Of a DNA stretch of 64,000 nucleotides, positions 7,514 to 9,969 are shown one piece after another. The stretch lies in contig NZ_BBIO01000018.1 in assembly GCF_000739695.1 (NCBI RefSeq), forward strand, positions 1 to 64,000, given 5' to 3'. Both the position numbers and the translations under genes were made by a program. Below the pieces are notes generated by a model. That model saw only the letters and a program-made list of their open reading frames with translations, had not been told where the DNA came from and made no database searches. Positions within the stretch are counted from its first letter, which is position 1. Every line of letters starts with the position of its first letter. The stretch comes from Tepidicaulis marinus (GTDB lineage: Bacteria > Pseudomonadota > Alphaproteobacteria > Parvibaculales > Parvibaculaceae).

Positions 7514-8296
7514 ATGGGGCTCGCCAAGGCAGATAAGACAACCACGCTCGATACAAAACGAGCGGCTCCCGCAACCGGGCAAAGCATTCACCCGGTGATC
7601 GATACGCTGGAAATGCGGATGCGCTGCGCATTGCTGCGCGATGCCGGGCGCGCGGAGACGCCCGAAGAAGTGATCCGCCGGGCGCTGGATTATGCCTCCG
7701 AGGCCGAGCAGCGCATCAGCGAGCTATCGGCCCGCGTCAAACTGCTGGAATCGCTCACCGTCACGGATGAGCTGACCGGCCTTTTGAACCGGCGCGGCTT
7801 CCAGGACATACTCTACCGCAACCTTGCCAGCGCCACGCGGCATAATGAGACGGGCGTCCTGGCTTTTATCGATCTCGACGACTTCAAACTCATCAACGAC
7901 ACCTATGGCCACGCGGCTGGCGATGCGGTGCTGCGCAAGATCGGCCAGTTCCTGCGCCGGAATATCCGCACCACCGATTATGCGGCGCGGCTTGGCGGCG
8001 ATGAATTCGCGCTGCTTTACGTACGCGGCGAACATGCCCGCGCAAGAGAGCGCGCGCGCGAGCTGAACGAAAAGCTCAACGGGCTCATCGTGCCCTGGGA
8101 AGGCCAGGCGATCGAGGTGCATGCCAGCATCGGTATGGCAAGTTACGACAAGGATTCCACGGCGATGGAACTGCTGGAGCTTGCCGACCGGGCAATGTAC
8201 CGGGACAAGAGCCGCGCGCGCAAGAAAACGCCCGCCCGCCGCAAAAACGCTGTCACGCGGACCCGCGCTGCATCACGGAAAAAGGCCAGCGCATAA
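7514..8296 (+). CDS. Diguanylate cyclase (GGDEF) with a basic C-terminal tail
   Basis: A 260-residue soluble protein predicted to make cyclic di-GMP. Residues 1-80 are helical with no domain I recognise and end in a likely coiled linker (AEQRISELSARVKLLESL). The GGDEF domain (about 82-240) has GGDEF at 161-165 and an inhibitory-site RxxD (R152, D155), so it should be active and feedback-inhibited. The last 30 residues are rich in Lys and Arg and may bind nucleic acid or membrane. AGGAG at 7503-7507 fixes the start. A sigma-54 promoter lies about 45 bases upstream, suggesting control by nitrogen status, flagellar assembly or another RpoN activator. Confidence 0.9.
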   Translation: MGLAKADKTTTLDTKRAAPATGQSIHPVIDTLEMRMRCALLRDAGRAETPEEVIRRALDYASEAEQRISELSARVKLLESLTVTDELTGLLNRRGFQDILYRNLASATRHNETGVLAFIDLDDFKLINDTYGHAAGDAVLRKIGQFLRRNIRTTDYAARLGGDEFALLYVRGEHARARERARELNEKLNGLIVPWEGQAIEVHASIGMASYDKDSTAMELLELADRAMYRDKSRARKKTPARRKNAVTRTRAASRKKASA

Positions 8297-8306
8297 GCCT
8301 GGCCTT
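8276..8306 (-). terminator. Intrinsic terminator for the agmatine-deiminase-like gene
   Basis: An 8-base stem AAGGCCAG / CTGGCCTT (8282-8289 with 8299-8306) around a 9-base loop. On the minus strand it is followed by TTTTT. It lies inside the last codons and just past the stop of the plus-strand diguanylate cyclase gene. Confidence 0.6.
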
Positions 8307-8320
8307 ATCCATCCACCCTT

Positions 8321-9370
8321 TTATCCGTCTGCCAAAGCTGCAGGCTGCGCCAGCACCGCCGCGTGCAAGGAGCGGCCTGCCCAGGCGAGATCGCCCGCCG
8401 GAACACTGACGGCTTTGCGGCCCGGAAATAGCTCCGCTAGAATATCGCGCGCCCGCGCATCATGCGCATCGCCATATGCGGGCACCAGCAGCCCGCCATT
8501 TACCGGATAGAACCCGACATAAGAAAACTGCGCGCCGCGCCCTTCCGTTCCGGCAAAAAGATCGCGGGTGAGCGGCACATCGACGATCTCCAGTGCCCTG
8601 CCCCGCGCATCCTTTGCCGCTGAAAGCTGGGCGCGCGCATCGGCCAGCACTTCGGCTTGGACCGGGTCCGCCTCACTTCCGCATGCAACCGCAACACGGG
8701 CCGGGCCGGTGAACGCGGCAACCTGGTCCACATGACCGCCCGCTTCATCCTGCGCCATGCCGCCGCCCAACCAGATGATACGCCGGGCACCGCAGAACAT
8801 GGCCAGCGCTTCTTCGATTTCGCGGTGCGAATGTTCGCGGTTGCGGTTGCTGTCGAGCAGCACCGCCTCCGTCGCGATCAACGTGCCCGACCCATCCGCG
8901 CAAACCGCGCCGCCTTCCAGCACAAGCTCGCCTTCATAGCGTTTCAGACCGATCTCATCGAGCAGCTTGCCCGCCAGACGCCGGTCATTGTCGATATGGC
9001 GGAAATGCCCGCCCAGCCCGTCATATTGCCAGTCGATACCGGCAACACCGCCCATCCCGTCGATCACGAACATCGGCCCGTTATCGCGGATGCGCCCATC
9101 GTCCTGCGCCATGACATGCAATTCGACCGCGCTGTCGCGCCCGCAGGCAAAACGCGCGGTGGCCTCATCTTCTGGCCGCACGATGAGGCTCACGGGCTCG
9201 AACTCGGCAACGGCCCGCACGAGCCCTGCATAAGCGGCATGGGCCTGCGGCAGGCTTTCACCCCAGACATCCGCGCGGGCCGGCCACTCGACCCAGGTGC
9301 GCTCATGCGGTTCCCATTCGGCGGGAAGAAAAAATCCATCGGTGAGCGGGCTTTGATAAATGGGCTCCAT
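8321..9370 (-). CDS. Agmatine deiminase-family protein lacking the catalytic cysteine
   Basis: A 349-residue protein of the agmatine deiminase / peptidyl-arginine deiminase fold: EWEPHERTWVEWP near the start, IRDNGPMFV, LVLEGGAV, GGHVD. Agmatine deiminases convert agmatine to N-carbamoylputrescine through a C-terminal cysteine in a G-G-x-x-H-C-x-T-x-Q-x-P segment. Here that segment reads AGRSLHAAVLAQP: the His is kept (H336) but the Cys is Ala (A337, codon GCG at 8360-8362), and the glycine run and Thr/Gln are also altered. It is therefore probably not a normal deiminase: a pseudoenzyme or a changed chemistry. This ATG fits the family's N-terminus; an upstream extension to 9472 is unlikely. 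It is divergent from ridA. Confidence 0.82.
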   Translation of the reverse strand: MEPIYQSPLTDGFFLPAEWEPHERTWVEWPARADVWGESLPQAHAAYAGLVRAVAEFEPVSLIVRPEDEATARFACGRDSAVELHVMAQDDGRIRDNGPMFVIDGMGGVAGIDWQYDGLGGHFRHIDNDRRLAGKLLDEIGLKRYEGELVLEGGAVCADGSGTLIATEAVLLDSNRNREHSHREIEEALAMFCGARRIIWLGGGMAQDEAGGHVDQVAAFTGPARVAVACGSEADPVQAEVLADARAQLSAAKDARGRALEIVDVPLTRDLFAGTEGRGAQFSYVGFYPVNGGLLVPAYGDAHDARARDILAELFPGRKAVSVPAGDLAWAGRSLHAAVLAQPAALADG

Positions 9371-9486: not shown

Positions 9487-9969
9487 ATGGCAGGACCGGC
9501 AACGTCAGACGAAATCGAAAAACGCTTGAGCAATCTTGGTATCGCACTGCCTGCGCCGTCGGGCGCGGCGGGCAATTATGTGCCCTATGTGATCAGCGGC
9601 CAGCAGCTCTTCATTTCCGGTCAGGTGCCGCTTTCCCCCGAGGGGCTGAAGTTTCAAGGCAAGGTCGGAGACGCCTTCAGCCTGGAAGAGGGTCAGGAAG
9701 CGGCCCGGCTCTGCGCCATCAATATTCTGGCCCAAGCCAAAGCGGCCTGCGGGGGCGATCTTGCGCGCCTTCGCCGCTGCGTCAAACTCAGCGGCTTCGT
9801 CAATTCCACCCCGGATTTCGACCAGCAGCCCGCCGTGATCAACGGCGCCTCGGACCTCATGGTCGCGGTGCTCGGCGAGGCGGGCCGCCATGCGCGCACG
9901 GCGGTGAGCGCGGCGAACCTGCCCTTCAATGTCGCCGTTGAAATCGACGCCATCTTCGAAATCGCGTGA
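9487..9969 (+). CDS. RidA-family enamine/imine deaminase
   Basis: A 160-residue RidA (YjgF/YER057c/UK114) protein. The family hydrolyses reactive enamine or imine intermediates made by PLP enzymes and protects them from damage. The C-terminal segment HARTAVSAANLP followed by VAVEIDAIF contains the arginine that anchors the substrate carboxylate in active RidA proteins. The length is that of the longer subgroup (about 150-160 residues). It is divergent from the agmatine-deiminase-like gene, with about 115 bases between the two starts, so the pair may share a control region. Confidence 0.88.
   Translation: MAGPATSDEIEKRLSNLGIALPAPSGAAGNYVPYVISGQQLFISGQVPLSPEGLKFQGKVGDAFSLEEGQEAARLCAINILAQAKAACGGDLARLRRCVKLSGFVNSTPDFDQQPAVINGASDLMVAVLGEAGRHARTAVSAANLPFNVAVEIDAIFEIA

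Follow-up and report, generated by a model that had tools for sequence, protein, structure and literature searches.

The agmatine deiminases (AgDIs) are the closest described relatives of the protein reported here. In the plant enzyme MtAIH, the mechanism requires the catalytic Cys, the triad is formed by Cys366, His224 and Asp226, and Trp91 and Trp125 line the substrate tunnel (PMC6447857). Within the same superfamily, human PAD6 carries Ala676 in place of the catalytic Cys; it is inactive in vitro and an essential structural component (PMC11067741; PMC12732937). For bacteria, we found no paper on Cys-less AgDI homologues in the open-licence PMC literature on pseudoenzymes and AgDI, PAD_porph, penteins, and RidA together with AgDI. 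Here we describe such a protein, P0001, encoded in a window of 64,000 nucleotides, which is the whole stretch of DNA that was analysed (Table 1).

Table 1. Features of the P0001 gene and its surroundings (positions in the window)
Feature	Positions	Strand	Remark
P0001, Cys-less agmatine-deiminase-like protein (probable AguA2 pseudoenzyme)	8321..9370	-	349 aa; ATG start at 9370
Codon 337, GCG = Ala	8360..8362	-	catalytic-Cys position (Cys357 in 2JER, Cys366 in MtAIH)
Codon 333, CGC = Arg	8372..8374	-	replaces motif Gly, near-invariant among intact relatives
Codons 213-215, His-Val-Asp	8726..8734	-	catalytic His and Asp kept
Codon 152, Glu (LEGG)	8915..8917	-	kept in 28/28 broken sequences
Codon 119, CTG = Leu	9014..9016	-	replaces substrate-tunnel Trp (Trp125 in MtAIH)
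Codon 96, Asp	9083..9085	-	guanidinium-binding in AgDI; kept in 28/28 broken sequences
Codon 93, CGC = Arg	9092..9094	-	replaces substrate-tunnel Trp (Trp91 in MtAIH)
Terminator-like hairpin with T-run	8283..8300	-	weak, chance-level frequency
ridA/YjgF-family gene	9487..9969	+	neighbour, divergent from the P0001 gene

Fold and active site of P0001

A profile search assigned P0001 to PF04371 (PAD_porph) with 293 bits (gathering cut-off 25), and its best match among the solved AgDIs in a sequence search had an E-value of 8.5e-56. Against TIGR03380, the agmatine deiminase equivalog, it scored 260.4 bits, below the curated cut-off of 381.8; one intact RidA-linked orthologue that was scored, with 371 bits, also fell just below it. 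The AlphaFold2 model, for which a 32-row alignment was the input, had a pLDDT of 90.1 and a pTM of 0.90, and its best solved match was Arabidopsis AgDI 1vkp (Z 51.4, rmsd 1.5 Å, 341 residues). Profile matches and model together show the predicted fold to be that of an agmatine deiminase (PF04371, guanidine-modifying/pentein). The reading frame is unbroken over its whole length, as the sequence-only reading had it, and the translation contains the fold landmarks named there, IRDNGPMFV, LVLEGGAV and GGHVD, as well as ...AGRSLHAAVLAQP.

It is the Cys nucleophile of the C-terminal GGGxIHC motif that P0001 lacks. Ala337, which had been placed at the nucleophile position from the letters alone, aligns with the catalytic Cys in all five solved homologues compared residue by residue, and this column holds Cys in 119 of 138 relatives. 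Both sampled genomes of the window's genus (g1) have Ala337, the window's own and a second one (G001, 97% identical), therefore a sequencing error, previously judged unlikely, is ruled out. The Gly run, Thr and Gln of the motif had been described as altered too, and indeed Gly333 is replaced by Arg and the CITQQ run by AAVLA. Besides, Trp93 is changed to Arg, Trp119 to Leu, Asn117 to Asp, Thr210 to Ala and Asn286 to Gly. Positions 93 and 119 align with Trp91 and Trp125 of MtAIH, and because these tunnel tryptophans are replaced, agmatine itself may not fit the g1 pocket. In all, P0001 differs at 17 of 65 near-invariant positions, defined on the 119 Cys-containing relatives, for which the median is 1. 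The catalytic His213 and Asp215 (GHVD) and the guanidinium-binding Asp96 and Glu152 are all retained in a position-by-position comparison.

With these four residues in place, P0001 might still be an enzyme that acts on a different substrate through another nucleophile or chemistry, e.g. based on water or on Cys157, and family f37, with a Cys two residues past the lost one, shows the motif to be open to rearrangement. There is, however, no replacement Cys in the C-terminal motif of P0001, its four Cys being 76, 157, 193 and 230, and the column of Cys157 is Ser, Cys or Asn among intact orthologues, so that Cys157 is no new nucleophile. Genus g3 lacks Asp215 and His336 and mostly also His213, so that no common alternative catalytic set exists. 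We regard a surviving enzyme as unlikely: the earlier suggestion of a pseudoenzyme or other chemistry is supported in its first half, and nothing supports the second. Reasoning from the family mechanism, the absence of Cys would mean that no covalent amidino-enzyme intermediate is formed and hence that agmatine would not be deiminated; P0001 is very probably dead as a Cys-dependent deiminase.

The ridA-linked locus, the canonical AguA and selection

The divergent orientation of ridA next to the P0001 gene, already seen in the letters, recurs: in seven alphaproteobacterial families a divergent ridA adjoins the AguA-like gene or lies no more than 3 kb away. The order EipB, 2-hydroxyacid dehydrogenase, GGDEF protein, AguA-like (-), RidA, FemAB-like, SGL-type protein and ClpA is common to g1, g3 and g5, and parts of it are also found in g2 and in families f121, f126 and f5. 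At this locus, the g5 and g2 genes encode the full HCITQQQP motif. P0001 is not a stray paralogue; it is orthologous to the intact HCITQQQP proteins of its sister genera at the ridA-linked locus. Since the gene at this place is intact in g5 and g2, an enzyme-like ancestor lost its chemistry in place. A terminator had also been reported downstream of the gene, and a short GC stem followed by a T-run is present, weaker than that description, with two such sites found against 1.9 expected in shuffled sequence.

A canonical AguA is also encoded in the window's genome, on a different contig (L001, G000:C38:59950-61023; 593 bits to TIGR03380; GGGNIHCITQQQP), and has a counterpart in the second g1 genome (L140, G001:C3). 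It shares 38% identity with P0001, which is a distinct lineage. The canonical gene of G001 lies in an operon with genes for a carbamoyltransferase, which we take to be putrescine carbamoyltransferase, an amino-acid permease and carbamate kinase. This is how an agmatine deiminase system is arranged (for the pathway, PMC12283126), and g1 apparently possesses a complete one. In one g5 genome (G015, L172), AguB, an OTC-type carbamoyltransferase and canonical AguA lie directly beside the ridA-linked AguA-like gene; it is the only genome in which we saw the canonical and ridA-linked copies together.

Such a pair of paralogues raises the idea of a prozyme: dead P0001 would modulate the genome's canonical AguA by forming a hetero-oligomer with it. 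Both g1 genomes encode the two proteins, bacterial AgDIs can be dimers or tetramers (PMC6447857), and in trypanosome AdoMetDC a dead paralogue activates the enzyme (PMC6221367). On the other hand, the broken gene is kept without canonical AguA in six of the seven g3 genomes, where its retention must have another cause, which excludes the prozyme as a general explanation, and we consider it rather improbable for P0001.

Between the two g1 genomes, on which all selection figures for the window's genus rest, the P0001 gene has a dN/dS of 0.052 (dS 0.36; 14.3 non-synonymous vs 75.7 synonymous differences), compared with 0.068 for canonical AguA. For the broken gene of g3 the values are 0.04-0.14, mostly 0.04-0.09, with intact frames in all seven species and dS mostly above 1. 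The gene had been described as looking maintained, and these values agree; relaxed selection in one strain alone is not what we see. The g1 stem branch is about five times as long for the P0001 gene as for concatenated FemAB, polymerase and RidA (1.24 vs 0.23 changes per site), while its divergence within g1 is 0.034 vs 0.036 for the neighbours. Such a long stem, after which constraint is ordinary, suggests that the function changed and speaks against decay. A gene that was inactivated recently and is drifting would account for the many altered near-invariant residues and for the long stem; yet no frame is broken in the two g1 genomes or the seven g3 species, both genera show low dN/dS, and within g1 the gene has diverged just as much as its neighbours, which makes decay barely credible. 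It would also be conceivable that the gene persists mainly because its DNA surrounds a promoter region shared with ridA, or because of regulation linked to RidA, its fold being incidental, and ridA is indeed divergent and near in seven families whether the triad is intact or not. A promoter role leaves the selection at the amino-acid level (dN/dS about 0.05) unexplained, and we hold it to be very improbable. P0001 is almost certainly maintained as a protein.

Loss of catalytic residues in other lineages

In genus g3, which belongs to the same family (f1) as P0001, the motif is of the IRRLTQPEP type, with both His336 and Cys337 replaced by Arg in all seven species; Asp215 is changed to Ser and His213 mostly to Gln. 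The pocket of the g3 proteins is invariant at 23 of 28 positions, against 149 of 308 elsewhere, therefore the altered pocket itself is under selection. The Arg-Arg pair (L066-L071, L104) puts two guanidinium side chains at the guanidinium-binding site and is possibly a built-in substrate mimic.

Catalytic residues are also missing from the ridA-linked protein of families f67, f34 and f125, the Cys in the case of f34 and f125; in families f37 and f82 the loss is found at other loci. Most species of genus g170 (f67) carry His213Gln and Asp215Asn, with Ser337 or Cys337, and the dN/dS of this genus is 0.09-0.20; genus g280 of the same family has Gly337, and g281 and g71 are intact. Among sister species of g170 (L174-L184), Ser337 and Cys337 vary and the His213Gln/Asp215Asn pair is nearly genus-wide; L176 has His213 and Asp215 together with Ser337. 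In four AguA-like proteins of f37 (L080, L085, L088, L090) the motif reads HSICLPQP or HAICLPQP, where the catalytic Cys is gone and another Cys stands two residues on, a possible shifted nucleophile; their genes adjoin an aspartyl-tRNA-synthetase-like gene instead of ridA.

On the best tree, built with the trait columns removed, catalytic loss requires at least five changes, three of which are forced by well-supported branches. A gene tree, likewise computed without these columns, joins g1 and g3 (support 99/98), but the neighbouring genes fail to resolve g1, g3 and g5/g2 and both the g1 and g3 branches are long, so that the losses in the window's own family may be one or two. All 28 broken sequences keep Asp96, Glu152, Arg95, Arg176, Asn177 and Asp129. 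Asp215 survives in 4 of the 28, Asn286 in 6 and Thr210 in 9; as these sequences were picked by catalytic loss, the loss of the triad is partly circular, and the retention of the other residues is not.

A link between AguB and the losses was considered and rejected. In family f1, none of the nine genomes with a broken copy has an AguB over the cut-off and all g5 genomes have one; in f37, however, three of the four genomes with broken copies have AguB, and the intact f121 and f14 genomes are without it. A profile search for SpeA (TIGR01273) found no genome of the order above the cut-off and is uninformative.

Proposed role and comparison with known systems

Taken together, an essential catalytic residue is lost (Ala337), purifying selection acts on the gene (dN/dS 0.052) and the loss is recurrent; we consider P0001 to be probably a pseudoenzyme with the agmatine deiminase fold that is maintained for a function. 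The pseudoenzyme reading proposed from the letters gains support, as neither relaxed selection nor a replacement Cys in the C-terminal motif was found. That P0001 acts by binding has about even chances. The ridA-linked protein would have a putative second, non-catalytic job, which may consist in holding a guanidinium-type or other small ligand via Asp96 and Glu152, or a partner protein, and His213 and Asp215 would add to the putative ligand-binding set in P0001. Our best reading from sequence is that the ligand would be guanidinium-like, or a partner; the retention of Asp96 and Glu152 could also serve folding only. Such a job may have kept the gene once catalysis became dispensable, independently in several lineages. 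A broader and tentative idea, which we rate as doubtful, is that the ridA-linked AgDI-like protein of Alphaproteobacteria is primarily a sensor of a guanidinium ligand or a binding partner, with catalysis optional and the role older than the losses. If so, it would explain the independent loss of the Cys-His-Asp triad with the fold and the guanidinium-anchoring acids kept.

The case also concerns annotation. With strong E-values, P0001-type genes receive the label "agmatine deiminase" from profile models; if an agmatine-to-putrescine route were deduced from Cys-less genes, it would be, judging from their residues, one that those proteins cannot perform.

Among known systems, the eIF6-type penteins resemble the pseudoenzyme reading of P0001 in having the pentein fold and a binding role without catalysis (PMC3820961), but they are not derived from agmatine deiminase and no close sequence relationship to them was seen. 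Human PAD6 shares with P0001 the superfamily and the Ala at the catalytic-Cys position, while it belongs to a different family with extra domains and (lost) calcium sites and has its role in animal oocytes. AguA itself (TIGR03380; PDB 1VKP/3H7C, 2JER, 6NIB) matches P0001 over the whole length of the fold (Z about 50) with 30-33% identity and has the equivalents of Asp96, Glu152, His213 and Asp215, whereas P0001 is without the nucleophilic Cys and has Arg and Leu for Trp91 and Trp125 (MtAIH numbering). The RidA-linked AguA-like orthologues of family f1 (e.g. L057 of G017) share locus and gene order with P0001 at 43-49% identity and differ in having the full triad and HCITQQQP. With dead P0001-type proteins and live orthologues of sister genera at the same locus, and with several independent losses, a non-catalytic role becomes testable by comparison.
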